Of a DNA stretch of 64,000 bases, positions 45,716 through 62,461 are shown in pieces. Both the position numbers and the translations under genes were made by a program. Numbering within the stretch: position 1 is the stretch's first letter; each line of letters opens with the position of its first letter. Source of the DNA: an uncultured Rhodospirillaceae bacterium (GTDB lineage Bacteria > Pseudomonadota > Alphaproteobacteria > Dongiales > Dongiaceae); the NCBI GenBank assembly GCA_902826565.1, contig CADEFF010000005.1, positions 13,148-77,147 on the forward strand, read 5' to 3'. The notes under the pieces are model-generated. The model searched no databases. It had not been told where the DNA came from and worked only from the letters and a program-made list of their open reading frames with translations.

Positions 45716-46483
45716 TCAGAATCGCGAGCCGCTCGGGAGCGGCGTCTCTTCCTGCTCTTTCCGTATTTGTCGTTTTTCGGAACCGGACGGCTCCCGGTCC
45801 GTGCCGAACATGTTGGCGCGTACCGCGTCGATATGGAGCCGCATCAGCCGCTCGGCGGTGAGCGCGTCGCGTTGCGCGATCGCTTCGACCACGCCGCAAT
45901 GATGCTCCCAGTAACGCCGCGGCCCGTAGGAGGATAGGGCGAGCTTCTGCAGCTTGCCCCAGGCGGTCTGGGTGCGGACCGCATTGATCGCGTCGAAGAG
46001 GGCCAGCATCAGCGCGTTATGCGCGGCTTCCGCGATCAGGCGGTGGAGCGTGCCGTCCCATAGCTCGTAGGTCGATACGTCGACGGCGGCCTCGCTTCGC
46101 CGCAGCGCGCGCTGCATGTTCCGGATCTCGACCGGCGTTGCCCGGATCGCCGCCAGCCGCGCGATGATCGGCTCGAGATAGCCGCGGACCTCCATCAGCT
46201 CCGCCGGGCTCGTGCCGCCGCTGACCATGATGAGGTCGCGCTCGTTCCGGAGCGGCCGGTTGCCGACGAAGGTCCCTTGGCCGACATGGCGCCAGATGGC
46301 GCCCTCGGCCTCCATCAGCGCGAGCGCTTCGCGCAGCGCCGCGCGGCTGACCCCCAGCTCGACCGCGAGCTCGCGCTCCGCCGGCAGGCGGCTATTGAGC
46401 GGCTGATTGTTTCCGATGAGATAGGCACGAAGCTTCGCCAGCGCATCATCGCTTCTGGAGATCCGGCGGCCGGCGGACATCAT
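45716..46483 (-). CDS. FadR-type (GntR) transcriptional regulator
   Basis: 255 residues. Winged helix-turn-helix: NSRLPAERELAVELGVSRAA and LREALALMEAEGAIWRHVGQ. The C-terminal FCD domain is all-helical and metal-binding His/Asp positions are visible (DGTLHRLIAEAAHN, EHHCGVVEAIAQRD). It overlaps the hydratase gene by ATGA and so belongs to the cluster; it probably controls the Rieske/ProVWX genes in response to a small acid. Confidence 0.88.
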   Translation of the reverse strand: MMSAGRRISRSDDALAKLRAYLIGNNQPLNSRLPAERELAVELGVSRAALREALALMEAEGAIWRHVGQGTFVGNRPLRNERDLIMVSGGTSPAELMEVRGYLEPIIARLAAIRATPVEIRNMQRALRRSEAAVDVSTYELWDGTLHRLIAEAAHNALMLALFDAINAVRTQTAWGKLQKLALSSYGPRRYWEHHCGVVEAIAQRDALTAERLMRLHIDAVRANMFGTDREPSGSEKRQIRKEQEETPLPSGSRF

Positions 46484-47289
46484 GCTCTCGCTTTCTCGAA
46501 GGTAGCGAAGACGGGCTCGAAGGCGCGGAAGCGCGCGACGACCGCATCGCCGGGTTCGGCGTGGAAATTGCCCGTGCAGGTGCCGGTGCTGATGATCTGA
46601 CCCTTCCGCAGGAAATCGCCGCGCTTGATCCGGTCGTTCGCGAGCCAGAGCAGGGAGTTCAGCGGGTGGCCGAGCACGCGCCCGCCCGTGCCCTCCGCGA
46701 CGAGCCGGTCATTGACGAAGAGCTGCGTCGGCTCGGCGGCGAGATCGATCGCTTGCCAGTTCTCGACCGGGCTGCCGAACACCATCAAACCGTCCTTGGC
46801 GTTGTCGGCAATGAGCGACGCCACACCGACGCTCGCCCAATCCGCATAGCGTGTATCAGCGATCTCGACGGTCGGGATCGCCGCCGCCACCGCCGCAGCC
46901 GCCGCCTCGCGCCCGATTTCGCCGGGTCCCGTCAGGTCGCGGCCGAGGCGCAGCGCGAACTCGAGCTGCAGCGAGCGCAGGAAGTTTTCCTGAGGCGCGA
47001 TCCTGGCGCCGTTCGGCCGGACCTGGTCCGCGAGTATCCGGCCGGCAAAAGGCTCGGTCGCGCCGACGCGCTCCTGGGCCGTGCGTCCCGTGCTGCCGAT
47101 CTTCCAGCCGAGAACCGGGGCCCCGACGAGCCGTATGAGCTCGTCCTGGATCGCATAGCCCTCGTCCACCGTCGCGGGATGCGCAGGAGCGACGAGCCCC
47201 GGAATGCGCCGGCCCTCGCGGCGGGCGGCGAGGAGCATGCCGGCGGCGGCCCGCCGGTCCAGCGATTCGGTCACACTGGATGGCTGCAT
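46480..47289 (-). CDS. 2-keto-4-pentenoate hydratase family (FAH fold)
   Basis: 269 residues of the MhpD/HpcG/XylJ family. RRIPGLVAPAHPATVDEGYA, VLGWKIGSTGRTAQERVGA, the metal-binding motif region ALRLGRDLTGPG, PTVEIADTRYADW and IISTGTCTG. Members add water to 2-hydroxypenta-2,4-dienoate or decarboxylate 4-oxalocrotonate. In the cluster it could process a ring-opening product of the Rieske reaction. ATG 47289 overlaps the end of the Rieske gene by 19 bases. Confidence 0.85.
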   Translation of the reverse strand: MQPSSVTESLDRRAAAGMLLAARREGRRIPGLVAPAHPATVDEGYAIQDELIRLVGAPVLGWKIGSTGRTAQERVGATEPFAGRILADQVRPNGARIAPQENFLRSLQLEFALRLGRDLTGPGEIGREAAAAAVAAAIPTVEIADTRYADWASVGVASLIADNAKDGLMVFGSPVENWQAIDLAAEPTQLFVNDRLVAEGTGGRVLGHPLNSLLWLANDRIKRGDFLRKGQIISTGTCTGNFHAEPGDAVVARFRAFEPVFATFEKARA

Positions 47290-48494
47290 GCGCGGAGATC
47301 GCCCGGCAGGGCGGCCTCGTCGGGGTCGAGGGGAAGCGCGTTCGTCGATTCCATCATCTTGCTCACCCACCAGGCGGCCATTTGCGGTATGAGCGGCTCG
47401 AGATGCGAGAGGCGCCCAGGCTGCGCGAAAGGCGATTTCAGGCCGAGAAGCTGCTGCTCGGTGATGTCGTTGTCCTCGGAGACGGCGATCTTCCAGCGCT
47501 TGAAGTAGTAGGCGGCGCGCTCTGCGAAATCGGCCTCCGCCATGGATTCGCGCGGGAAGCAGCCGCCGAGCGTGACCCTGGTGCGGTGCGGACCCTGGGG
47601 GCTGAGCTCGACGTACCAGACGCAGTCGACGGTGAGCGCGATCAGGGTCGAGGGAAAAAGACAGACGAAGTTGGTGCCTTCGGCGGCGTGGCCGTAGAGG
47701 CCGGGGATGCGGGGGAGGGCGTGCCGAACGTCCTCGTTCAGCAGGGCGCGCGTGCCGGCATGCCGTTCGCGCATTACGAGCCAGTTGCCGCGCGTCTCGG
47801 GGCTGAAATGCTCGTAGCCGCCTTCGAGCTTGTTCAGCGTGGTCGAGTGGACCATGGGCACATGGAAGTCCTCCACCGAGTTTTCGATATGGTTCTTCCA
47901 GTTGCAGGCGACGTCGAACTCGACGCGATCGGCCAGCACCAGGTTCTCGCAGCGATAGGCGGCAAGCTGCTCGGGCATGTCGCCGAGATGCGCATCGACC
48001 GAGCCTGCCTCCTCGCCGAGCCGCACGAAGATGAAACCGCAGCGGCACTGGGTTTCGAATTCGATGAGCCCGTACTCTTCGGCGTCGAATTCCTGGGTCT
48101 GGTCCATGCCGACGGCGCCACGCAGCCTGCCGTCGAGGTCGTAGTTCCAGAAGTGATAGGGACAGCGGAAGCCACGGCAGTTCCCCGCCCCCTTCGCCAC
48201 CCGGGTACCGCGATGCCGGCAACTATTCGCGAAAGTCTTCACCTGCCCCCCGCGGTTGCGGACGAAGAGCAGCGGAACGCCGAGAAAGGTTTCGCTGAAA
48301 AAATCGCCCGGATTGGGAATCCGGCTTTCGTGACCGAAGAAATTCCAGGTCCGGGCGAACAGATGCTTTAGCTCGGCGTCGTAGAAGGCCTGCGACGTAT
48401 AGGCGGCGGGCGGTAGTGTTTCTGCCTGGAGCAGCGGCTTGAACACATTGGCGAAACGAGCGCCGTTCCCGTCACGCCTGTTGTCTCGCAGCAT
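47271..48494 (-). CDS. Rieske [2Fe-2S] oxygenase alpha subunit
   Basis: 407 residues. Rieske cluster ligands C92, H94 (CRHRGTRV), C111 and H114 (CPYHFW). Catalytic domain NWKNHIENSVEDFHVPMVHS gives mononuclear iron ligands H211 and H216. Between the two centres most Rieske oxygenases use Asp three residues before the first His; here it is Glu208 (E-D-F-H), as in carnitine monooxygenase CntA and related quaternary-ammonium enzymes. No reductase or ferredoxin gene is nearby. With ProVXW adjacent, an N-methylated betaine is the likely substrate class; the exact compound is unknown. Confidence 0.88.
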   Translation of the reverse strand: MLRDNRRDGNGARFANVFKPLLQAETLPPAAYTSQAFYDAELKHLFARTWNFFGHESRIPNPGDFFSETFLGVPLLFVRNRGGQVKTFANSCRHRGTRVAKGAGNCRGFRCPYHFWNYDLDGRLRGAVGMDQTQEFDAEEYGLIEFETQCRCGFIFVRLGEEAGSVDAHLGDMPEQLAAYRCENLVLADRVEFDVACNWKNHIENSVEDFHVPMVHSTTLNKLEGGYEHFSPETRGNWLVMRERHAGTRALLNEDVRHALPRIPGLYGHAAEGTNFVCLFPSTLIALTVDCVWYVELSPQGPHRTRVTLGGCFPRESMAEADFAERAAYYFKRWKIAVSEDNDITEQQLLGLKSPFAQPGRLSHLEPLIPQMAAWWVSKMMESTNALPLDPDEAALPGDLRACSHPV

Positions 48495-50581: not shown

Positions 50582-51391
50582 TCAGTCGTCGAGCGCTGCG
50601 GCGGCGAGCGCGGCCACCTGAAGATCGACCACGGGATCCTCGCCGTCGCCGATGATCCAGGCTGCCGACAGGCCGGTCCAAGCGAGGATCCACTGCAATA
50701 GCCGAACGCGATCCTGGCCGGATCGCGCGATCACGATCTCCAGCCGTCGCCGGAAGCGCTCCGGCCGCGTGGCGACCGGCCGCGACGGATCCTCCATGTC
50801 CGGATTGCAGAAGAGGTTCGCATAGTCGAACCCGCGCTCGCCCCAAAGGCGCTTCGGGTCGATCGCGAGCCAGCCGCGTTCCTCGAAATCGAGGACATTG
50901 TCGTGATGGATGTCGCCATGGAGCACGCCCGTCTCCTGCGGGGTCGAGAGCAGCAGCCGTGCCGTCTCCCCTGCCCGACCCAACAGACCGCCCTCTGCGT
51001 TCGCGACCGGCTCGAGCGCCGCGAACCAGACCGGCAAAGGCACGAGTTTCGGCAGCGGCTTCGCGCGCGGCGCGTGGAGCGCCGCGATGGCGTCGCAGAG
51101 AATGATCGTCGCCTCGTCGTCGCGACCTTCGCGCGCATAGGCGGAAAGCGACCGCCTGCCGAGGGCGCGTTCGAGCAGGATCGCCGCCCCATCCTGTTCC
51201 AGCAGGCGGACGGCGCCCTCGCCTTCCCACCAACGCAGCAACAGGCCGCCGAAGCCCTCCTCCGCCTCTGTCGCGATCTTCAGCATCGCCGCCCGGCCCT
51301 GCCGCCGCACCGGCAGGAGGCGCGCCCGCGGCGTCGCCACGGGATCGCCGTCAGGCACGAGATTCCACAGCGAGAGATAGCGATCGAACAT
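50582..51391 (-). CDS. APH(6)/hydroxyurea-type phosphotransferase
   Basis: 269 residues of the aminoglycoside phosphotransferase fold, StrB/SpcN-like branch. Kinase catalytic loop VLHGDIHHDNVLDFEE and metal-binding AIDPKRLWGERGFDYANLFC are clear; the N-lobe Lys in AAMLKIATEAEEGFGG would bind ATP. The true substrate may be an endogenous metabolite; many such chromosomal genes give no resistance. ATG 51391 was chosen because family-like sequence begins there; the frame opens from 51589. Divergent from the LLM gene with its operator between them. Confidence 0.85.
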   Translation of the reverse strand: MFDRYLSLWNLVPDGDPVATPRARLLPVRRQGRAAMLKIATEAEEGFGGLLLRWWEGEGAVRLLEQDGAAILLERALGRRSLSAYAREGRDDEATIILCDAIAALHAPRAKPLPKLVPLPVWFAALEPVANAEGGLLGRAGETARLLLSTPQETGVLHGDIHHDNVLDFEERGWLAIDPKRLWGERGFDYANLFCNPDMEDPSRPVATRPERFRRRLEIVIARSGQDRVRLLQWILAWTGLSAAWIIGDGEDPVVDLQVAALAAAALDD

Positions 51392-51525
51392 GAAAGGGGC
51401 TTTGCGACACGACCCAAGACGAGAAATTCGGGAGCGACACCGTGCCCTCAGACGGGAGAGTGCCGCGGTCGATCCGGCCCCGGACGATGCGCGGCGCGCT
51501 TTACCTGTCCGCCGGGATATGGTAA

Positions 51526-51541
51526 TTGTATGATTGTATGA
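51526..51541 (+). promoter_or_regulatory. Putative operator: direct repeat TTGTATGA x2 before the LLM gene
   Basis: TTGTATGA is repeated exactly in tandem, TTGTATGATTGTATGA, ending 49 bases ahead of the LLM gene ATG. The same 16 bases, in the same orientation relative to the gene, precede the transporter binding-protein gene at 58913-58928. Such an exact match of an AT-rich 16-mer in this GC-rich DNA is unlikely by chance. Confidence 0.7.
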
Positions 51542-51590
51542 CAGAACAGGTTTCCGACGGCGCGTCTCTCGGTCCGCGAAGGCATGCACA

Positions 51591-52784
51591 ATGAAGATCG
51601 GCTATTTCTGCAATCCCAGCAATCCGGGGCATCAGCGCGACTATCGCAGCGTGATGAACGAGGTGCGCAACCTCTCGATCTTCTGCGACAGGGCTGGCTT
51701 CGACAGCATCTGGTACGCCGAGCATCATTTCAGCATCTGGGGCCGCGAGGTTCTGCCCAACCCGCTGATCATGGCAGCCGATATCGCGGCGCGCACGCAA
51801 CGCATCCGGATCGGCCTCGCGGCGGCGATCATCACCTTCTGGCATCCGCTGCGGCTCGCCGAAGACCTCGCGCTGCTTGACCAGCTCCTGGACGGTCGGC
51901 TCGAGATCGGCCTCGGGCGCGGCAATTACGGTATCGAAGGCACGAACCTCAATCCGAAGGCGGATCCGCGGAACCCCAAGCAGAACTTCGAGGTGTTCGC
52001 CGAGACGTTGCAGATCCTGAAGAAGGCTTTCACGGAGCGGCTCTTCAACCACCAGGGCACGCACTACACGGTGCCGACGCCCGGCTTCCAGTGGGACCGT
52101 GCGCATCCGGTCGACGACGCCGACTATATCGATGCGGCGACCAAGGAACTGAAATACATGTCGGTCTATCCGCGGCCGCTGCAGCAGCCCTACCCGCCGC
52201 TCTGGCAGGTGGTGGATTCGCCGCTCGCGATCGAATATGCGGCGCAGAACGACATGGGCATCATCATGTGGCGGCCGCCGGTGGAGACGCTGAAGGAGCG
52301 CTTCCGCCTCTATCAGGAAACGGCGGCCAAGGCGACCGGCAAGCCGGTGGCCTGGGGCGCCCGCACCAGCGTCGTGCGCGATACGTTCGTCGCGGACACC
52401 ATGGAGCAGGCGCGCGACATGGCCGAACGCCATGTGATGCGCTACCTCAACTGGAGCAACTGGCGCGGGCCCAAGATCTATCTGAAGCCGGGCGAGGTGC
52501 TGACGCCGGCGCAGGAGCAGCAGCAGGTGAAGGAGCTCACCTTCGAGTTCGTGAAGGAGCGCTCGCTGCTCTTCGGCACGCCGGACTATGTGGTCGACAA
52601 GATCGCCGAGCTGGAGGAGGAGCTCAGCATGGAGCAGCTCCTCGTCAACTCGACCTGGCTCGACATTCCGCACGATATCGCGATGCGCAGCATGCAGCTC
52701 TTCGCCGACAAGGTGCTGCCCCGCGTCCGGGGCGGCGCGCAGCCCGCGGCGATATCGCAGAAGATCGGCGCCGCCGCGCGGTAG
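51591..52784 (+). CDS. LLM-class flavin-dependent oxidoreductase
   Basis: 397 residues, luciferase-like TIM barrel. MKIGYFCNPSNPGHQRDYRS, GFDSIWYAEHHFSIWGREVL (the AEHHF FMN motif of bacterial-luciferase relatives), IRIGLAAAIITFWHPLRLAE, LDGRLEIGLGRGNYGIEG and LFGTPDYVVDKIAELEEELS. It uses FMNH2 and oxygen to attack a substrate. ATG 51591; the frame opens upstream over the operator without family sequence. It begins a run with an amidohydrolase and a GFA protein. The needed flavin reductase is not in view. Confidence 0.88.
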   Translation: MKIGYFCNPSNPGHQRDYRSVMNEVRNLSIFCDRAGFDSIWYAEHHFSIWGREVLPNPLIMAADIAARTQRIRIGLAAAIITFWHPLRLAEDLALLDQLLDGRLEIGLGRGNYGIEGTNLNPKADPRNPKQNFEVFAETLQILKKAFTERLFNHQGTHYTVPTPGFQWDRAHPVDDADYIDAATKELKYMSVYPRPLQQPYPPLWQVVDSPLAIEYAAQNDMGIIMWRPPVETLKERFRLYQETAAKATGKPVAWGARTSVVRDTFVADTMEQARDMAERHVMRYLNWSNWRGPKIYLKPGEVLTPAQEQQQVKELTFEFVKERSLLFGTPDYVVDKIAELEEELSMEQLLVNSTWLDIPHDIAMRSMQLFADKVLPRVRGGAQPAAISQKIGAAAR

Positions 52785-52851
52785 AATCCCCGGCGAGCGA
52801 CCGGAAGCGTCGCGCCACCGCCTTCGCGCGGGCCCGCAACGGAGGCAAAAC

Positions 52852-53721
52852 TTGGCTATGGCCGGCAATGCCCGCGCACTGATCGACTGGCACAGCAATC
52901 TGTGGCTGCCCGAGCATCTGGGGCCCGAGCAGCGCGCCGAGATGGGTAGCAAGACCGGACGCAGCGTCGATGCGAGCCCGGCTGCCCACAAGCGGCACGT
53001 GGCCGACATCTGCGAGAAGTTCGTGCTGGTCGCGATGCGGTGGAACCGGCTCGGCATCCATATCCCGAACGAGTTCGTCGCCGAGTATGCCGCCGACTAC
53101 AAGGGCCGCGCCGTGGGCTTCGCCTGCGTCGATCCGCACGACGCGAACGCCCCCACCGAGCTCGAGCATGCGGTGGTCAAGCTCGGACTGCGCGGCCTCA
53201 AGCTCTCGCCCGTCTATGCCGGGTTCGATCCCTGGTCGCCGGAAGCCTGGCGGCTCTACGAGGTCGCGAACGCCCTCAAGGTGCCGCTGCTCTGGCACCA
53301 GTCGGCCGCCTATGCGCAGCAATCGATGCTCGAGTACGGCAACCCGATCCTGGTCGACCGGATCGCGCGGGCGTTCCCGCATCTGCGCATGATCCTCGCC
53401 CATGTCGGCCAGCCCTGGACTGCCGAGACGGTCGTGCTGCTGCGCAAGCACAAGCAGATCTATGCCGATCTCTCGGCGCGCTACTATCGCAAATGGCAGT
53501 GCTACAACGCGCTGATGCTGGCGATCGACTATGGCGTGACGGGCCAGCTTCTGTTCGGCTCCGACTTCCCCATCCAGACGCCGAGCGCGGCACTCGACTC
53601 CTTCCGCGCCATCAACGACTGGGGAGAAGGCGTCACCATGCCGCGGATCCCGGACAGCCTCATCGACGACATCGTCTATAACCGTCCGCTCGAGCTGCTC
53701 TGGCCGGACGGGATCGGATGA
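52852..53721 (+). CDS. Amidohydrolase family 2 (TIM-barrel) with an altered metal motif
   Basis: 289 residues. NARALIDWHSNLWLPEHLGP: at the usual DxHxH metal motif the second His is Asn (H14-S-N16 from the TTG start). Later elements GLRGLKLSPVYAGFDPWSPE, PLLWHQSAAY, RMILAHVGQPWTAETVVLLR, and LFGSDFPIQTPSAALDSFRA with the catalytic-type Asp are normal. It would hydrolyse or decarboxylate a lactone or amide-like product of the LLM enzyme. Start: TTG 52852 sits 6 bases after GGAGG; ATG 52858 is the alternative. Overlaps the next gene by ATGA. Confidence 0.85.
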   Translation: MAMAGNARALIDWHSNLWLPEHLGPEQRAEMGSKTGRSVDASPAAHKRHVADICEKFVLVAMRWNRLGIHIPNEFVAEYAADYKGRAVGFACVDPHDANAPTELEHAVVKLGLRGLKLSPVYAGFDPWSPEAWRLYEVANALKVPLLWHQSAAYAQQSMLEYGNPILVDRIARAFPHLRMILAHVGQPWTAETVVLLRKHKQIYADLSARYYRKWQCYNALMLAIDYGVTGQLLFGSDFPIQTPSAALDSFRAINDWGEGVTMPRIPDSLIDDIVYNRPLELLWPDGIG

Positions 53722-54143
53722 CGGACGAAACCGAATGGCGGGGCGGCTGTCTCTGCGGCCATATCCGGTTCCGGGCGACCGGCACGCCCGTTCGCGTCGC
53801 CCATTGCCATTGCAGCATGTGCCGAAAGGCGAGCGGCGCCGTCGCCCTGACCTTCGCGACCTTTCCTGTGACTGCCGTCGTCTGGGAAAGTCCGCCGGCA
53901 CGGCACGAGTCGAGCAAGGTCGCCTGGCGGGGTTTCTGCAGGCGCTGCGGCGGCACCCTCAGCTACATCTTCCGCCACCGCCCGACCGAGGTGATGCTGA
54001 CCGTCGGCAGCTTCGACGAGCCCGAACGCCTGCCGCCGGCGCAATATCACTCCTGGACCTCGGAGCGGATCGGCTGGGCGCATCTCGATCCCGAGCTTCC
54101 GGGCCATGAGCGCTGGCGCTACACCCCGAGCGCGCTCACGTGA
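53718..54143 (+). CDS. GFA/CENP-V family zinc protein
   Basis: 141 residues. GGCLCGHIRF, AHCHCSMCRKASGAV and FCRRCGGTLSYIF give the cysteine pattern for the two zinc sites of the glutathione-dependent formaldehyde-activating (GFA) family. Coupled by ATGA to the amidohydrolase. It may help capture formaldehyde set free by oxidation, a guess based on family name; real activity of most members is not proven. Confidence 0.87.
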   Translation: MTDETEWRGGCLCGHIRFRATGTPVRVAHCHCSMCRKASGAVALTFATFPVTAVVWESPPARHESSKVAWRGFCRRCGGTLSYIFRHRPTEVMLTVGSFDEPERLPPAQYHSWTSERIGWAHLDPELPGHERWRYTPSALT

Positions 54144-54148
54144 GCGGG

Positions 54149-54568
54149 TCAGCGGGCGAGCGCCGCCTCGTTCTCCAGGATCGCCTTCTCCATAGAGGCG
54201 GAGTCGGTATAGGCCCTGACCTCGACCACCTTCCCGCCGGCGAAGCGGCAGATCCAGACATAGTTATTCTCGATCGGCTTGCCGTTCAGCGCTTCGGAGA
54301 TCGAATGCATCTCGACGATGCCGTGATCGCCGGAGACGAACACGTTGCGGAGCGTGATCTTGAGCGGCACGTTCGGATTGCGGATCCTGTTGATCCGGCC
54401 ATGCGCCTTGGCGAGGAACTCCTGCTTGCCGTTGTAGGTGGCGGCGAGCGTGTGCCTGCCCATGATGGTGACCTGGACGTCGTCGGAGAGCCCGGCGAAG
54501 TAGGCCTCGCGATTACCGGCTTCCAGATTGCGGAACAGGGCTTCGACATGGTCCTTGGTAAGGGTCAT
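54149..54568 (-). CDS. NTF2-like/SnoaL-like protein
   Basis: 139 residues with the cone-shaped NTF2 fold: VEALFRNLEAGNREAYFAGL, SDDVQVTIMGRHTLAATYNG, KQEFLAKAHGRINRIR, VFVSGDHGIVEMHSISEALN and VWICRFAGGKVVEVRAYTDS. Family members are isomerases, cyclases or binding proteins for small hydrophobic compounds. It ends 5 bases from the convergent GFA gene, and stands divergent from the alpha/beta hydrolase gene that follows. Confidence 0.85.
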   Translation of the reverse strand: MTLTKDHVEALFRNLEAGNREAYFAGLSDDVQVTIMGRHTLAATYNGKQEFLAKAHGRINRIRNPNVPLKITLRNVFVSGDHGIVEMHSISEALNGKPIENNYVWICRFAGGKVVEVRAYTDSASMEKAILENEAALAR

Positions 54569-54615
54569 CGATCGGGGTCCTTTGCGAGTGGCGGAGAAAG
54601 GCGGATGGAAGCGGC

Positions 54616-55491
54616 ATGACGGAGCTCGAGGCGCCCGAGGGGAAGTTCATCGAGGTGGCGGGCTACCGCACCTTCTATATCGATCGGGGCGAAGGACCGG
54701 TGCTGCTGCTCCTGCATGGGGCATCGGTCGCGATCGACGCCTATTCCACCTGGCATTCGCTGATCGAGGCGCTCGCGTCGCGCTTTCGCGTGGTCGCCTT
54801 CGACCAGCCCGGTTTCGGCCGCAGCGACATGGTGAAGGACCGGCGCTACGTGAACCGCCTCGGACGCGTGCCGCACGCCCTTGGCTTCCTCGATGCGCTC
54901 GGCATCCGGCGCGCGACCCTGGTCGGGCATTCCGAGGGCGCCTTCATGGCCACCCGCATGGCGATCGAACGGCCGGCTCTCGCGGCGGGTCTCGTCATCG
55001 TCACCAGCGGCGGCACGGCGCCGCGGCTCGGCGGTGCGCTCGACCGCGGCTGGATGGAGGCGAGCAAATCCGCCTACGACTATGGCGGCGGCGCCGACAC
55101 CGAGGACGGATTCATCCGGGCGAACGGCAGTCTCAGCCGCGCCGCCGATCCCGCGCTGGAGCGGCTGCTGCGCGGGAACTACCGACGCGCCGCGGCGGCA
55201 GGGCAGATCGAGATGTTCCGCAACCTGTCGGCGGACGAGCGCGACCTCGATCTCTATGTCCGGCTTCAGGAAACCCATATCCATCCGCATCTTGCCGCCC
55301 TCGAAACCCCGACCCTCATCGTCTGGGCCTCGAGCGACCCGACCGTGCCGGTCGAGCGCGGCGTCGCGCTCATGCGGCTCTTTCCGCGGGCGGACTTGCA
55401 TGTGTTCGGCGGCGCGTCGCATATGGTGATGCTCGACCGCGCCGAGGGCTTCAATCGGTTGCTCGCCGGCTGGTGCGCCGGGCGCCGCTAG
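54616..55491 (+). CDS. Alpha/beta hydrolase (first of two)
   Basis: 291 residues. Oxyanion region LLLLHGASVAIDAYSTWHSL, nucleophile elbow VGHSEGAFMATRM (Ser in GHSEG), a cap domain between about 130 and 215, acidic residue in IVWASSDPTVPV and His in GGASHMVMLDRAEG. Probably an esterase or C-C bond hydrolase of a catabolic pathway. Its stop codon shares the four bases CTAG with the stop of the convergent hydrolase gene. Confidence 0.88.
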   Translation: MTELEAPEGKFIEVAGYRTFYIDRGEGPVLLLLHGASVAIDAYSTWHSLIEALASRFRVVAFDQPGFGRSDMVKDRRYVNRLGRVPHALGFLDALGIRRATLVGHSEGAFMATRMAIERPALAAGLVIVTSGGTAPRLGGALDRGWMEASKSAYDYGGGADTEDGFIRANGSLSRAADPALERLLRGNYRRAAAAGQIEMFRNLSADERDLDLYVRLQETHIHPHLAALETPTLIVWASSDPTVPVERGVALMRLFPRADLHVFGGASHMVMLDRAEGFNRLLAGWCAGRR

Positions 55492-56285
55492 CGCGCGCAT
55501 CGCCCGGCGAAGTCGCGCAAGGTCGCGACGAGCGTGTCGGCCGCTTCCAGCGGCAGCATATGCCGGATTCCCGGCAGGATGATCCGTTCGGCGCCCGCGA
55601 TCCGGGATTGCATCGCTTCGGCCATGCGGGGCGTCTGGCCGGCATCCTCGTCGCCGGTCAGGATCAGGGTCGGTGCCTTGATGTCGGACAAGCGGTGCAA
55701 TAGCTGGCGGTCGTTGTCGGCATAGAGCCGATAGACATCGACATAGGATTGCGGATCGTTCGCGAGTGTTTTTGCGCGCCAGTAGGCGACGACCTCGGGG
55801 TGCGCGGCCGCGTAGCCGGGCCCGAACCAGCGGCCGAGGGCACCATCGACCACGGCCGGCGCACCGCCGGCCGCAACCTGCTCGACGCGGAGATCGACGC
55901 GGGCCTGTTCCTCCGGCATGCGGGCGCAGGCCGATGCGGCGATCGCGAGCCCCGCGCAGCGCGCTGGGTAATCGAGGGCGAAGCACTGGGCGATGTTGCC
56001 GCCGAGCGAGAAGCCGCAGACCGTCGCCCGCTCGATGCCGACGTGATCGAGCAGGCCCGCGAGCTGCGCCGCGAACTGCGTGAAGCACCAGGGCGCCGGC
56101 ACCCGCCCGCTGCGGCCATGGCCCCAGATATCGTAGCGGATGACCCGAAACCGGTCCTCGAGGGCGGCGGCATGCCGATCCCAAAGCGTGGCGTCTCCAC
56201 CCATGCCGTGGATGAGCACGAGCGCGGGTCCCCGACCCGCGCTTTCGAAATAGGTCGGTCCTTGCGGCAGCGCTGCGACGGGCAT
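55488..56285 (-). CDS. Alpha/beta hydrolase (second; 3-oxoadipate enol-lactonase-like)
   Basis: 265 residues. VLIHGMGGDATLWDRHAAAL, RYDIWGHGRSGR, nucleophile CGFSLGGNIAQCFALDYPAR, acid in LTGDEDAGQTPRMAE and His in IILPGIRHMLPLEAAD. The overall pattern resembles PcaD/enol-lactone hydrolases but no pca genes are nearby. It follows the FadR-type regulator gene on the same strand by 76 bases and may be its partner. Confidence 0.87.
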   Translation of the reverse strand: MPVAALPQGPTYFESAGRGPALVLIHGMGGDATLWDRHAAALEDRFRVIRYDIWGHGRSGRVPAPWCFTQFAAQLAGLLDHVGIERATVCGFSLGGNIAQCFALDYPARCAGLAIAASACARMPEEQARVDLRVEQVAAGGAPAVVDGALGRWFGPGYAAAHPEVVAYWRAKTLANDPQSYVDVYRLYADNDRQLLHRLSDIKAPTLILTGDEDAGQTPRMAEAMQSRIAGAERIILPGIRHMLPLEAADTLVATLRDFAGRCAR

Positions 56286-56361
56286 CAGGAGACGGTCCGG
56301 AAAGGGAACGGGGTCGGGGTCCGATCGGGCACGGGCGGCGTGCCCAAGCCCGGGGCCGAAG

Positions 56362-57072
56362 CTAGGCCTTCGCCAGGGCGGCTTCGCTTCGAAGCAATTC
56401 GAGCGCGATCGCGCCCGCATGATCGACCTGCGCCACGCAGGCCGCCGCCGCCGCATCGGGATCCTTCGCCTTGATCGCCGCCACGATGCACCGGAAATTC
56501 TCCACCGATCGGTGCTGGTCCTCGGCGGTATAGCGAAGCGTCGTGGTGGTGCGGAGATACTGCATGCGGGCCCGGAGCGAGCGGATCATCGCGGCGGCCA
56601 GGTCGTTGCCGCAGCCGTCGAACATGATGTCGTAGAATGTGATCAGCGCCTCCAGGACCGTATCGACGTCGCGCGCCTTGATCGCCGTTTCGTAGCGCTT
56701 CGCCGCGTCCGCGAGGGCCGCCTGCTCGGCCGCCGTCGCCCGCTCCGCGAAGAGCCGTCCGACGAGCCCTTCGATCGCGCCGCGGAGCTGATAGATCTGC
56801 CGCGCATCGTCCACCGTCACCGTCGCCACCACCGTGCCGCGATGGGGAATGTTCTGCACCAGCCCCTCGGCCTCGAGATGCCGCAGCGCCTCGCGGAGCG
56901 AGGTCCGGCTCACCCCCGTGAGGTCGCAGAGCTCGCGCTCCACCAGCCGGTCGCCCGGCTTGAAATGCTGATCGAGAATCGCCTTGCGAAGCGCGTCGAC
57001 GGTACGCTCGCGCGTCGTGGTGGTGGTGCCCGCAACCCGATAGGCATTTCTGTCCGGTGCGCCGGTCGCCAT
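56362..57072 (-). CDS. FadR-type (GntR/FCD) transcriptional regulator
   Basis: 236 residues. Winged helix-turn-helix: LRKAILDQHFKPGDRLVERE and LCDLTGVSRTSLREALRHLE, then AEGLVQNIPHRGTVVATVTV. The FCD domain follows (IYQLRGAIEGLVGRLFAERA; His/Asp in FYDIMFDGCGND and EDQHRSVENF). It sits between the LLM-side genes and the transporter genes. FadR-type factors bind short repeats containing TTGTAT-like sequence, so it is the natural candidate to bind the TTGTATGA operators. Confidence 0.88.
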   Translation of the reverse strand: MATGAPDRNAYRVAGTTTTTRERTVDALRKAILDQHFKPGDRLVERELCDLTGVSRTSLREALRHLEAEGLVQNIPHRGTVVATVTVDDARQIYQLRGAIEGLVGRLFAERATAAEQAALADAAKRYETAIKARDVDTVLEALITFYDIMFDGCGNDLAAAMIRSLRARMQYLRTTTTLRYTAEDQHRSVENFRCIVAAIKAKDPDAAAAACVAQVDHAGAIALELLRSEAALAKA

Positions 57073-57249
57073 GACCCCGTGTCTCTCCAGATTGCAATCC
57101 GCTCATAATGCCGGCTTCCGAGGCGATGCGAAACCGTCGCGCGTGAAGCGCACGGGTCATTCTTGTGCCCGACGGCATCGAAATTTCCGACGGGCGCGCC
57201 AGGCGGGCGACGGGACCTGGGCCGCCGACCCGCCGAGGCGAGCGCAATG

Positions 57250-58827
57250 CTAGCTCGTGAAGTGGAGCTGCTCGCCGATCCGATAGCCGGTGAAGACGAG
57301 CGTCGGGATCAGGCCCTTCAGGTTGCTGGCGCTGGCGAACAGAAAGTTGTTGAAGGCCGGGATCATGACGCCGCTGTCCTCCGACATCATGAGCTGCAGC
57401 TCGCGATACATCTGCTTGCGCTTGGCATTGTCGAGCTCGGCGCGCGCCTGAAGCACCAGCTTGTCGAAATCGTCCCGGCGCCAGTGCGATTCGTTCCAGT
57501 CGGCGCTCGAGATGAACATCAGCGACATGATCATGTCGGCCGTCGGCCGGCCGGCCCAGTAGGAACCGCAGAACGGCTTCTTCATCCAGACGTCCGACCA
57601 GTAGCCATCCTCCGGCACCTTGTCGACGGCGATCTCGATGCCGGCCTTGGCCGCGCTCTCCTTGAAGAGCAGCGCGGCATCGACGGCACCGGGGAAGGCG
57701 GCATCGGCGATGGTGAGCGTTACCGGACCGCTATGGCCCGATTTCTCGAAATGGAACTTCGCCTTGTCGGGGTCGTAACTGTGTTGCGGCAGGTCGTCGG
57801 CATAGAAGCGGTCGAGCGAGCTTACCGGCTGGTCGTTGCCGACCACGCCATAGCCGCCGAGCACCTTCTCCAGGATCTCCTCGCGGTCGAGCGCCCATTT
57901 CATCGCGAGGCGCATGTCGGCATTGTCGAACGGCTTGGCGTCGCAGAGCATCGACAGGGTGTAGAAGCCCGCGCTGGGGATATCGAGGATCGTCAGGTCC
58001 GGGTTGTTCTTCAGCAGCCCCACGGTCTTCGGATCGACGCGGTTGATGAAATGCACCGTACCGGACTGCAGCGCGCTGGTCCGCGAGGTGAGGTCGTTGA
58101 TGCCGACCGTCTCGACGCTGTCGACGAAACCGCGATTCTCCTTCCAGTAGTTCGGATTGCGCTTGGTGATCGCCCGAACGCCCGGATCGAAGGATTCGAT
58201 CACGTAGCCGCCGGTGCCGATGCCCGCCTTCGGATCGCCACCCGCCGGCAGGATCAGCAGATGATAGTCCGTCAGGATGTAGGGCATGTCGGCGTTCGGC
58301 CCGTTCAGCGTAATGGTGACCTCGTGCGTATCGGTCGCCTTCATCTCCGTGACCGGCTCGAAGAAGGCCTTGGCGGCGGAGGTCGAATCCGGCTTGCGGT
58401 GATAGTTGAGGGAATCGATGACGTCTTCCGCCGTCAGCTCCTTGCCGTTGTGGAACTGCACGCCCTTGCGGATCTTGAAGACCCACTTGGTGGCCGTCGC
58501 ATCGGTGTCCCAGCTTTCGGCCAGCTCCGGATCGAGCTCGCCCTTCTCGTTCAGTTCGACCAGCGAGTTCGCGAACTGATAGCCGAGGGTGTATTGCGCC
58601 GTGCAGCAATAGCTCATCGGGTCGAGCGTGTCGGTCGAGGATGAACCATCGAGACCGAGCACGAGATGCCCGCCCTTCTTCGGCGCGTCGTCGGCGAAGG
58701 CGGCGTTGCCGGCGAGCGTGCTCGCGAGCGCGGTCGAGACGCCGAGCGCCGCGGCGCGGCCCATGAACTCGCGGCGCGTCACGCGACCATGCGTGGCGAG
58801 CCATTTCAGTTCGTCATGCCCAGACAT
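57250..58827 (-). CDS. ABC transporter substrate-binding protein, family 5 (DppA/OppA-like), Tat-exported
   Basis: 525 residues. N-terminus has a twin-arginine signal (VTRREFMGRAAALGVSTALA, cleavage near AAFADD). Binding-domain marks: TDTLDPMSYCCTAQYTLGYQ, FANSLVELNEKGELDPELAE, VFKIRKGVQFHNGKELTAED, GTGGYVIESFDPGVRAITKR, and MRLAMKWALDREEIL. It captures a peptide or opine-like compound for the DppBCDF-type system encoded just upstream. ATG 58827; the frame opens from 58920 through the operator without a signal sequence. Confidence 0.9.
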   Translation of the reverse strand: MSGHDELKWLATHGRVTRREFMGRAAALGVSTALASTLAGNAAFADDAPKKGGHLVLGLDGSSSTDTLDPMSYCCTAQYTLGYQFANSLVELNEKGELDPELAESWDTDATATKWVFKIRKGVQFHNGKELTAEDVIDSLNYHRKPDSTSAAKAFFEPVTEMKATDTHEVTITLNGPNADMPYILTDYHLLILPAGGDPKAGIGTGGYVIESFDPGVRAITKRNPNYWKENRGFVDSVETVGINDLTSRTSALQSGTVHFINRVDPKTVGLLKNNPDLTILDIPSAGFYTLSMLCDAKPFDNADMRLAMKWALDREEILEKVLGGYGVVGNDQPVSSLDRFYADDLPQHSYDPDKAKFHFEKSGHSGPVTLTIADAAFPGAVDAALLFKESAAKAGIEIAVDKVPEDGYWSDVWMKKPFCGSYWAGRPTADMIMSLMFISSADWNESHWRRDDFDKLVLQARAELDNAKRKQMYRELQLMMSEDSGVMIPAFNNFLFASASNLKGLIPTLVFTGYRIGEQLHFTS

Positions 58828-58912
58828 CGAGAATCCTCCCCTTCTTCTTTGAGTCGTGCCCGTCGCGACACCCGCTGCCGCTCGGAAGTCGGCCTTCCAT
58901 GATGGTTTATAA

Positions 58913-58928
58913 TCATACAATCATACAA
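58913..58928 (-). promoter_or_regulatory. Putative operator: direct repeat TTGTATGA x2 before the binding-protein gene
   Basis: Minus-strand TTGTATGATTGTATGA, 85 bases ahead of the binding-protein ATG, is identical to the site at 51526-51541. It is followed by TTATAAACC, which could be the -10 of the same promoter. It lies in the 193-base space between the dual ATPase gene and the binding-protein gene. Confidence 0.7.
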
Positions 58929-59020: not shown

Positions 59021-60688
59021 TTACGGCCGGGGGGCGGGGAGGCTGGCCGCGGGCTCGGGCGCGGTCGATGACACCTCGCGGGCGGCGAGGAGCCGGTCGA
59101 GCCAGCGCACATCCATCTCCGGAACCGAGGACAGCAGGAGCTCGGTATAGGGATGCCAGGGCGGGCTCAGGAGCTGCCGCTTGGCGCCGCGCTGCACGAT
59201 CTCGCCCCGATACATCACGACGATCTCGTCGGCGATCGCCTTCACCGTCGCGAGATCGTGGGTGATGAAGAGATAGGAGAGGCCGGACTCGTTCTGGATG
59301 CGCAGCAGCAGCTTCAGGATTCCGTCGGCAACCAGCGGATCGAGCGCGCTCGTTATCTCGTCGCAGATCACGATCTCGGGCTCGGCCGCGAGCGCGCGGG
59401 CGATGCAGACGCGCTGCTTCTGCCCGCCCGAGAGCTCACCGGGCAGCCGTCGGACGAGGTCGCGCGGCAGCTCCACCATCTCGAGCAGGCCCTCGACCTT
59501 GCGAAGCTGCTCGGCGCCGCGCTGCCCGAAATAGAACTCCAGCGGGCGACCGAGAATCTCGCGGACAGTCTGGCGCGGATTGAGCGCGATATCCGGCATC
59601 TGATAGATCATCTGCAGGCGCCGCAGCTCGGATTTCGACCGGCGCTTCAGCCGCTTGGCGAGCGGCCGTCCGTCGAGCAGGCATTCCCCCGCTTCCCACG
59701 GCAGGAGCCCGGTGAGCACGCGGGCGAGCGTCGATTTCCCCGATCCGGATTCGCCGACGATCGCAAGCGTGGTACCGCGATGCAGCTCGATCGAGACGTC
59801 GCGCAGCACCCTTATGCCGTTTCCGTAGCTCGCCGTGACATGGCGCGCCTCGAGCTGGGGCGGCGTGGCGGGCTCGGGCTTTTCCGGCGCCATGGCGCGC
59901 CGCACATTGACGAGCTCGCGCGTGTAAGGCTCGGCCGGTTCCCGCAGAATCCGCTCCGCGGGGCCGGCCTCCACGAGCTTCCCGTGGCGCAGCACCATGA
60001 TGCGGTCCGCGACCTGGGCGACCACCGCGAGATCGTGGCTGATATAAAGCGCCGCCATCCCCTCGCCCCGCATCGCCTCGCGGATCGCGGCCAGCACCTC
60101 GATCTGGGTGGTGACGTCGAGCGCGGTCGTCGGCTCGTCGAACACGATGAGGTCGGGCTTGCAGATCATCGCCATGGCGGTCATCGCCCGCTGTAGCTGC
60201 CCGCCCGACACCTGATGCGGGAAGCGCCGGCCGAAATGCTCCGGATCCGGCAGGCGCAGGCGGCGATAGAGGCGCTTTGCCGTCGCCAGTGCCTGCTCCG
60301 CCGACATGAGCCCGTGCGAAACCGGCACCTCGCAGATCTGCCGGTCGATGCGATGGGCGGGGTTGAAGGCGGCGGCCGCGCTCTGCGCGACATAGGCCAT
60401 CCGCACGCCCCGCAGCCGCCGGAGCTCGTCGCGGTCGGCGCCCGCGAGCTCCTGCCCGTTCGCCACGATCGAGCCGCCGGCGATGCGGCAGCCGCCGCGG
60501 GCATAGCCCATCGCCGCGAGGCCGATGGTGGATTTCCCGGCGCCGGATTCGCCGATCAGCCCCAGCACCTCGCCGCGATCGAGCTCGAGCGAGACGCCCT
60601 TGACGATCCCGTGCCACTGGCCCTGGCTGTCCTGTGCCTCGACATGCAGGTCCGCAATGCGGAGCACCTTGGCGTCGGCGGCCGTCAT
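59021..60688 (-). CDS. ABC transporter fused dual ATP-binding protein (DppD-DppF type)
   Basis: 555 residues with two complete ABC domains. Domain 1: GESGAGKSTIG, the signature VSGGQLQRAMTAMAMI, LIVFDEPTTALDVTTQIEVL and SHDLAVVAQVAD. Domain 2: GESGSGKSTLARVLTGLLPW, LSGGQKQRVCIARALAAEPE, CDEITSALDPLVADGILKLL and THDLATVKAIADE. Such fusions replace separate DppD and DppF. It energises the DppB/DppC-like permeases, and its start overlaps the DppC-like stop by ATGA. Confidence 0.92.
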   Translation of the reverse strand: MTAADAKVLRIADLHVEAQDSQGQWHGIVKGVSLELDRGEVLGLIGESGAGKSTIGLAAMGYARGGCRIAGGSIVANGQELAGADRDELRRLRGVRMAYVAQSAAAAFNPAHRIDRQICEVPVSHGLMSAEQALATAKRLYRRLRLPDPEHFGRRFPHQVSGGQLQRAMTAMAMICKPDLIVFDEPTTALDVTTQIEVLAAIREAMRGEGMAALYISHDLAVVAQVADRIMVLRHGKLVEAGPAERILREPAEPYTRELVNVRRAMAPEKPEPATPPQLEARHVTASYGNGIRVLRDVSIELHRGTTLAIVGESGSGKSTLARVLTGLLPWEAGECLLDGRPLAKRLKRRSKSELRRLQMIYQMPDIALNPRQTVREILGRPLEFYFGQRGAEQLRKVEGLLEMVELPRDLVRRLPGELSGGQKQRVCIARALAAEPEIVICDEITSALDPLVADGILKLLLRIQNESGLSYLFITHDLATVKAIADEIVVMYRGEIVQRGAKRQLLSPPWHPYTELLLSSVPEMDVRWLDRLLAAREVSSTAPEPAASLPAPRP

Positions 60689-61494
60689 CGGACCCTCTTC
60701 AGGCCGGAACGGCTGAGCTGCCAGTCCACCAGCAGGTTGACGGCGATGGTGAGGGCGAAGATCGCGCCGGCCGGGATCAGCGGCAGCACGAGCCCGAAGC
60801 CGATGGCGTTGGCGTTTTCGCGCACCATGCCGCCCCAGTCGGCCTGCGGCGGCTGGACCCCGACGCCGAGGAAGCTGACGGCGCTGAGGAAGAGGATGAT
60901 GAAGCAGAAGCGAAGACCGAACTCCGAGATCAGCGGCGGAAGAGCGTTCGGCAACACCTCGCGACGCATCACCCAGCCGAGTCCTTCGCCGCGGAGTCGC
61001 GCGGCCTCGACATAATCCATCACCGCGATGTCGAGCGCGAGCGCACGGGCGAGACGGAAAACGCGCGTCGAATCGAGGATCGCCATGACGAGGATCAGGA
61101 TCACGGCCGAGGACGGCAGCAGCGCGAGCACGACGAGCGCGAAGATCAGCATCGGAATCGACATGAGGACGTCGACCGCCCGGCTGATGATCTGATCGAC
61201 GAATCCGCCCATCACGGCGGCAGTGAAACCCAAGGTCATGCCGATGGCGAAGGAAAGCAGCGTCGCGATGAGGGCGATGGAGATGGTGGTACGCGTGCCG
61301 TAGAGGAGGCGGCTCAACACGTCGCGGCCGAGACTGTCGGTCCCCAGCAGGAACTCGTGCGAGAAGGGCAGCCAGACGTCGCCTGCCGCCTCCGATTCGC
61401 CGTAGGGCGCGATCCAGGGGCCGATGACCGCGATCACGAGGAAGAACCCCACGATCGAGGCGCCGAACCAGAAGCTGAGTGATCGCAAGGTCAA
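60685..61494 (-). CDS. ABC transporter permease (DppC-like)
   Basis: 269 residues, six membrane helices. LPFSHEFLLGTDSLGRDVLS and RLLYGTRTTISIALIATLLS are the DppC entry motif (GTDxxGRDxxSR-like), and AIMDYVEAARLRGEGLGWVM is its EAA loop, which binds the ATPase. It pairs with the DppB-like permease encoded 10 bases upstream. Confidence 0.9.
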   Translation of the reverse strand: MTLRSLSFWFGASIVGFFLVIAVIGPWIAPYGESEAAGDVWLPFSHEFLLGTDSLGRDVLSRLLYGTRTTISIALIATLLSFAIGMTLGFTAAVMGGFVDQIISRAVDVLMSIPMLIFALVVLALLPSSAVILILVMAILDSTRVFRLARALALDIAVMDYVEAARLRGEGLGWVMRREVLPNALPPLISEFGLRFCFIILFLSAVSFLGVGVQPPQADWGGMVRENANAIGFGLVLPLIPAGAIFALTIAVNLLVDWQLSRSGLKRVR

Positions 61495-61504
61495 ACCCCG
61501 TCTC

Positions 61505-62461
61505 CTACTTCGGGTGTCGCAGCCGCGGATTGGCGAGGGTCGAGAGGATGTCGGCGATCATGTTGAGCAGCGTGTAGGTGCCGGCGAAAACGAGGCCGCA
61601 GGCCTGCACCACCGGCAGGTCGCGCTTGGCGACGTTGTCCACCATGAGCTGGCCGACGCCCGGATAGACGAACACCACCTCGACCACCACCACGCCGACG
61701 ATCAGATAGGCGAGGTTGAGCACCACCACGGTGATGATCGGCGCCAGCGCGTTCGGCAGCGCGTGCCACATCACGATCCGCGAGGCCGTCGCGCCCTTGA
61801 GCTCCGCCATCTCCACATAGGGGCTCGACATGACGTTGATCACCGCGGCGCGGGTCATCCGCATCATGTGCGCGAGCACCACCAGCGTCAGGGTCGCGCA
61901 GGGCAGGATGATGAGGACCAGCTTGTCGCCGAGCGGCATGCTCGGCGACAGCTTGGCGAGGGACGGCAGCCAGCGCAGCTTGACCGCGAAGACGAAGATG
62001 AGGATGTAGCCGACGAAGAACTCCGGCATCGAGATGGCGGCAAGCGTCGAGATCGAGATGGTCTTGTCGAGCCAGCTACCCTGGAAACGTGCCGCCACGA
62101 GACCGAGCCCGATCGCGAGCGGGACGGCGACGAGCGCCGCGGTGCCGGCGAGGAAGAGCGTGTTCTCGAGCCGCGGCGCGATCATCTCGATCACCGGCTT
62201 GCCGGTGGTGAGCGAAGTGCCGAGATCGCCCTGCAGCAGGGACCCGAGCCATTGCAGGTAGCGGATATGGGCCGGCAGATCGAGGCCGAGCAGCTTGCGG
62301 AGGTTGTTGACCGTCTCCTCGGTGGCGCCCTGCCCCAGCACCGCCTCGGCCACATCGCCCGGAAGAATCTCCGTGCCGACGAAGATGACGAGCGAGACCG
62401 CCAGCAGCGTCAGCGCGCCCAGCGCCAGGCGATGCAGGATGAGGCGAACGACGCCGTTCAT
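61505..62461 (-). CDS. ABC transporter permease (DppB-like)
   Basis: 318 residues. First helix LILHRLALGALTLLAVSLVI, LPAHIRYLQWLGSLLQGDLG and TSLTTGKPVIEMIAPRLENT are the DppB family features, followed by the EAA loop YVEMAELKGATASRIVMWHA and LVDNVAKRDLPVVQACGLVF. It starts 49 bases after the GMC gene on the same strand. Confidence 0.9.
   Translation of the reverse strand: MNGVVRLILHRLALGALTLLAVSLVIFVGTEILPGDVAEAVLGQGATEETVNNLRKLLGLDLPAHIRYLQWLGSLLQGDLGTSLTTGKPVIEMIAPRLENTLFLAGTAALVAVPLAIGLGLVAARFQGSWLDKTISISTLAAISMPEFFVGYILIFVFAVKLRWLPSLAKLSPSMPLGDKLVLIILPCATLTLVVLAHMMRMTRAAVINVMSSPYVEMAELKGATASRIVMWHALPNALAPIITVVVLNLAYLIVGVVVVEVVFVYPGVGQLMVDNVAKRDLPVVQACGLVFAGTYTLLNMIADILSTLANPRLRHPK

Follow-up and report, generated by a model that had tools for sequence, protein, structure and literature searches.

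The predicted operator of a regulator linked to a luciferase-like monooxygenase cluster is probably a FadR-type palindrome plus an accessory half-site

Operators of FadR-subfamily regulators are built from boxes of the form TKGT...ACMA, with GT and AC set 2-3 nt apart and with additional, weaker half-sites 7-12 nt from the centre (PMC4494728). Such sites occur before the regulator's own operon and before nearby catabolic operons (PMC4494728). A different arrangement is known from E. coli NanR, whose 8-bp direct-repeat unit is TGGTATAW (PMC4494728, PMC8012715) and whose (GGTATA)3 operator is bound cooperatively by three dimers, a property that depends on an N-terminal extension of ~32 residues (PMC8012715). 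The ingredients of the site described here, namely FadR boxes with extra half-sites and direct-repeat binding by NanR, are already published (PMC4494728, PMC8012715). However, we found no literature report of the present regulator group in connection with a regulon of luciferase-like monooxygenase (LLM) and solute-binding protein (SBP) genes.

An earlier note on this DNA had drawn attention to a 16-mer, TTGTATGATTGTATGA, that occurs before two distant genes, and our search of the 64,000-nt stretch under analysis (the window) bore this out. Exact copies lie at 51526-51541 (+; copy 1) and 58913-58928 (-; copy 2), both share the same orientation relative to the gene downstream, and the window holds no other match even at ≤3 mismatches. 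The number of copies expected in the window is 0.03, and two copies arose in 0/100 dinucleotide shuffles. Copy 1, which belongs to a conserved stretch at 51525-51544 (ATTGTATGATTGTATGACAG), is located 49 bp upstream of the LLM start codon (ATG 51591), and copy 2 is located 85 bp upstream of the start codon of an SBP_bac_5 gene (ATG 58827).

The earlier note saw no third copy, which is true of the window, but the genome has one. Copy 3 (CTGTATGATTGTATGA, one mismatch to TTGTATGATTGTATGA) was found at C5:81131-81146 (-), which is equivalent to window positions ~67984-67999, ~4 kb beyond the window edge. It lies 11 bp upstream of the start codon (ATG) of a gene for a PhyH-type dioxygenase and is inverted relative to that gene. 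The search of the whole 4.19-Mb genome thus returned three copies at ≤1 mismatch rather than many random ones, all of them before genes and all inside 16.5 kb around the regulator gene described below. The sole other genomic match to the 16-mer, on contig C2, carries three mismatches and looks like a chance occurrence. Furthermore, the 10-mer ATCATACAAT is confined to copies 1 and 2 across the whole genome.

Copy 1 heads three plus-strand genes, which encode an FMN-type LLM of 397 aa (51591-52784; Pfam Bac_luciferase, 172 bits), an Amidohydrolase_2 protein (52858-53721) and a GFA-family protein (53718-54143; Pfam, 83.6 bits). For the amidohydrolase we favour a start at 52858 (or TTG 52852) over the mechanical ORF start at 52588; in the long ORF the Pfam match starts only at residue 99, the homologue in the related genome G004 can be aligned over 279 residues only, and GGAGG is present immediately upstream. 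Among the nearest solved relatives of the LLM protein are bacterial luciferase and 3,6-diketocamphane monooxygenase. With the latter (4uwm), a type II Baeyer-Villiger/LLM enzyme, it aligns over residues 28-378, nearly its full length, although the likeness is low (E 6e-15), and bacterial luciferase alpha outscores 4uwm over shorter stretches. This likeness would fit the oxidation of a ketone followed by the action of the hydrolases, which is only a lead. The intergenic region that holds copy 1 is shared with a divergent gene (50582-51391, -), whose product belongs with the aminoglycoside/hydroxyurea resistance kinases (Pfam APH_6_hur, 268.6 bits).

Beyond the GFA gene, a gene had been proposed at 54140-54619 (+), where there is probably none; the conserved gene is instead a SnoaL_2-like gene on the opposite strand (54149-54568, -; Pfam, 35.9 bits), whose G004 homologue likewise scores on the minus strand. 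It is followed by alpha/beta hydrolase 1 (54616-55491, +; Pfam Abhydrolase_1).

Copy 2 heads a series of minus-strand genes. The first encodes a family-5 (Dpp/Opp-type) SBP (57250-58827; Pfam SBP_bac_5, 250.8 bits), the second a GntR/FCD regulator of the FadR subfamily (56362-57072; 236 aa), and the third, which follows the regulator gene on that strand, alpha/beta hydrolase 2 (55488-56285). The Pfam match of this hydrolase runs from residue 77 of an ORF at 55488-56456, which contains an in-frame ATG at 56285. Genes for a fused ABC ATPase (59021-60688, -), two permeases (60685-61494 and 61505-62461, -), a GMC oxidase and an aldehyde dehydrogenase (ALDH) lie on the upstream side of copy 2 and are transcribed in its direction. 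No operator copy is present at the head of this permease/ATPase/GMC/ALDH1 run (divergent region L006:3201-3490), nor was one found for the permease/ATPase/GMC operon elsewhere in the genome. The proposal of a regulon that joins uptake and oxidation is sustained in so far as the SBP is linked to the LLM, but membership of the permeases, ATPase and GMC oxidase is unproven because no copy stands at the head of their run.

The GMC oxidase gene (choline-dehydrogenase-like; 62511 to ~64118, -) crosses the window end, such that its 489-aa window ORF is truncated, and the protein in the genome has 535 aa. The closest transporter homologues encountered reside in another genome (L147, G137:C5:32500-52400), with identities of 43% for the SBP, 56-58% for the permeases and 61% for the ATPase, and of 51% for an adjoining LLM; neither an FCD gene nor an operator core is found nearby.

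When each site in this genome is read as its reverse complement, TNGT-CAT-ACAA appears first and is followed by TCATACAA. Specifically, copies 1 and 3 read TGTCATACAATCATACAA, and in copy 2 AAT replaces TGT. The core corresponds to an 11-bp FadR-type palindrome, TNGT-N3-ACNA, with a further CATACAA half-site 8 bp on. Compared with TNGT-N2/3-ACNA, copy 3 is a full match (TTGTCATACAA), copy 1 has one end base off (CTGTCATACAA) and copy 2 has a degenerate left arm (TAATCATACAA; TAAT versus TNGT), and the relatives carry TGGTATACCA. The motif agrees with the published FadR-subfamily consensus and with the published spacing of the extra half-sites (PMC4494728). Its boxes, the GT/AC spacing of 2-3 nt, the extra half-site and the location ahead of the regulator's operon and of neighbouring catabolic genes are all shared with that subfamily, and it differs in that the extra half-site nearly equals the core in all three copies of this genome, which produces the look of a direct repeat.

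The earlier note had described each site as two direct copies of one unit. The 8-bp repeat is real, and all three copies in this genome hold the tandem almost perfectly, but what relatives conserve is the palindromic core (TTGTATGAC or (T)GTATAC) and not a perfect tandem. When relatives' sites were picked on the core alone, with the flanks disregarded, an ATAC-like half-site was enriched at exactly +8 (2.44 versus 1.41 matches of 4; 0/400 shuffles). Because of this enrichment, the apparent tandem would most simply be read as a palindrome with an accessory half-site.

The site is conserved together with both the LLM gene and the regulator. The closest orthologous cluster (L038/L050) belongs to G004, a genome of the same family and another genus, with identities of 62% for the FCD protein, 70% for the LLM, 76% for the amidohydrolase, 62% for the SnoaL region, 64% (hydrolase 1) and 60% for the hydrolases, 62% for the ALDH and 26% for the SBP. 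A search of G004 with the 16-mer from the window (≤4 mismatches) located it before the LLM gene and, in a weaker form, before the SBP gene (GGATTGTATGAC, the counterpart of copy 2); the exact core ATTGTATGAC is intergenic and lies before exactly these two genes. In the 200 bp upstream of the two LLM genes, the longest exact match overlaps copy 1 and is the operator itself at 16 nt, a length reached in 0/400 shuffled pairs, whose maximum was 11 nt. Upstream of the SBP genes the longest match is 11 nt, and matches as long arose in 6/400 shuffles. The G004 result came from the 16-mer of the earlier note and is thus free of post-hoc pattern choice.

A wider comparison was made by scanning the LLM alignment against genome contigs, which yielded 80 relatives. 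The core GT(C)ATAC(A/C)A occurs ≤300 bp upstream of the LLM gene in all four loci with an adjacent FCD gene (L050, L055, L057 and L058); where no FCD gene is nearby, it occurs in 1/8 non-SAR11 and 0/68 SAR11 upstream regions. This core pattern was picked after those upstream regions had been viewed, and the count is accordingly descriptive and not blind. GTATAC-type palindromes of the form TATGGTATACCA/TTGTATACCA, also written TATGGTATACCATA or TTGTATACCA, are found in the more distant relatives L055, L057 and L058 before the LLM gene and by the SBP and/or FCD gene. The exception is L054, in which the site is present although its record, from a metagenome-assembled genome whose completeness is not stated, yields no FCD relative at E≤1e-25.

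The protein encoded at 56362-57072 carries an N-terminal GntR winged helix-turn-helix (HTH) domain (69.2 bits, cut-off 27) and a C-terminal FCD domain (81.8 bits, cut-off 24.3). A branch with support 91/93 separates the FCD proteins from LLM clusters, this one among them, from the others in the tree. The few genomic copies of the site and its occurrence with the same regulator clade in relatives agree with the earlier proposal that the 16-mer is an operator whose most likely partner is the FadR-type gene between its copies. We therefore consider it probable that the repeat is a FadR-type palindrome plus an extra half-site, that it is the operator of the 56362-57072 protein and that this protein is an autoregulated repressor. 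Points against this reading are the poor left arm of copy 2, the divergent gene that borders copy 1 and locus L054, with its site but no FCD relative at the threshold given above.

Could the same regulator instead read the site as NanR does, with one dimer on each head-to-tail 8-bp repeat and cooperative assembly? The locus shares with E. coli NanR an FCD-type GntR protein as the presumed repressor, a GTATA-type unit, direct repeats in this genome and an association with uptake and breakdown genes. The 8-bp period and the TTGTAT unit resemble the NanR repeats TGGTATAW and (GGTATA)3 (PMC4494728, PMC8012715), the tandem is near-perfect in all three copies, and the NCBIfam NanR model (NF003011) is a distant match to the regulator, at 64.8 bits against a curated cut-off of 260. 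Nevertheless, the site has two units rather than three, and in the G004 copies and in L055, L057 and L058 the palindromic core is kept and the perfect tandem is lost. Moreover, the HTH match starts at residue 21 of 236, which leaves no space for the 32-residue N-terminal extension that cooperativity needs. The loss of the tandem in relatives and the short N-terminus weaken this explanation, and we regard it as unlikely.

Another regulator might own the operator, given that the genome has 10 GntR/FCD matches. One of these proteins (45716-46483) is encoded ~10 kb away, in a separate catabolic cluster (45716-48494, -) near a Rieske ring-hydroxylating oxygenase; a further candidate is the paralogue on contig C3 (G000:C3:50318-50968). 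The C3 gene is a member of a group of paralogous FCD genes (L041-L044) that lie by a second, distant LLM gene and are preceded by another palindrome, TAATACCGTATTA or near variants of it. The different palindrome before the genes of this group argues against cross-talk, and the site in question travels with the clade of the 56362-57072 protein in relatives, such that ownership by another regulator appears quite improbable. Finally, there are only three copies and their likeness is limited to ~17 bp, but coincidence, or descent from a duplicated or mobile stretch that has no regulatory role, can be set aside as an explanation with near certainty, given an expectation of 0.03 in the window, conservation in another genus ahead of the same genes although the LLM proteins differ by 30%, and the lack of likeness outside the operator, unlike what a duplication leaves.

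The identity of the sites, their rarity, their position and their co-conservation with genes and regulator are observations. For the preferred reading, a palindromic operator of the 56362-57072 protein, we infer binding by that protein, repression and a ligand from the pathway. An FCD dimer would occupy the palindrome, with the extra half-site adding to its affinity. The ligand-free protein would repress the LLM, amidohydrolase and GFA genes through copy 1, the SBP, regulator and hydrolase 2 genes through copy 2, and hence its own synthesis, and the PhyH gene through copy 3. The imported compound, or one of its breakdown products, would then release the repressor. Autoregulated repression that a pathway compound lifts is the most likely mode of control. 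We base this on the placement of the sites 49, 85 and 11 bp before start codons, on the location of the regulator gene, which follows copy 2 on its strand, and on how members of the subfamily usually act. A scan for sigma-70-like promoters passed none at any of the three sites, and repression by promoter overlap is therefore not claimed.

In SAR11, where no FCD gene was found near the LLM loci, the orthologous LLM gene (L059-L129) has a strongly conserved leader, RCGATACATAACTC-GT-CG-(6-33 nt)-CGRAAGYGGGAT-NNN-TCGY, shortly before the ATG (e.g. L060:9940-9985 and L073:5325-5372). Written as RNA, the pattern is RCGAUACAUAACUC-GU-CG-N6-33-CGRAAGYGGGAU-NNN-UCGY. Exactly one copy per genome is present in 24/24 genomes, and no match to the pattern elsewhere turned up in 398 sampled genomes of the phylum. 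The leader is unlikely to be coding because the length of the 6-33 nt spacer is not restricted to multiples of three.

A short outer stem in this leader is favoured in register, where 75% is paired, against 20-52% once the strands are slid; at one pair of the stem G-C, A-U and G-U all occur. RNAalifold applied to the SAR11 alignment gave a weak energy and no double-sided changes among 10 pairs, and folding of single sequences was no better than for shuffles. Rfam returned no match above gathering for six SAR11 loci and nothing meaningful at relaxed E for L060, and the LLM gene is unmentioned in the main texts of the papers on SAR11 motifs that were examined. The leader is possibly a riboswitch, a candidate that is not established. 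A tentative and rather doubtful extension of this idea is that one LLM unit answers to the same signal through two unrelated controls: in large-genome Proteobacteria through an FCD repressor acting on a three-half-site operator, and in SAR11 through a hitherto undescribed structured leader RNA.

These findings predict the regulator, the operator and the target genes of an uncharacterised but widespread catabolic unit centred on an LLM. They also illustrate how a FadR-type palindrome, when joined by a further half-site, can pass for a direct repeat. Furthermore, the substrate of the unit becomes searchable, as the ligand that frees the FCD protein from its 30-bp site would be the compound or a derivative of it. 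Should the leader in SAR11 prove to be a riboswitch, an abundant ocean clade might sense the same compound.
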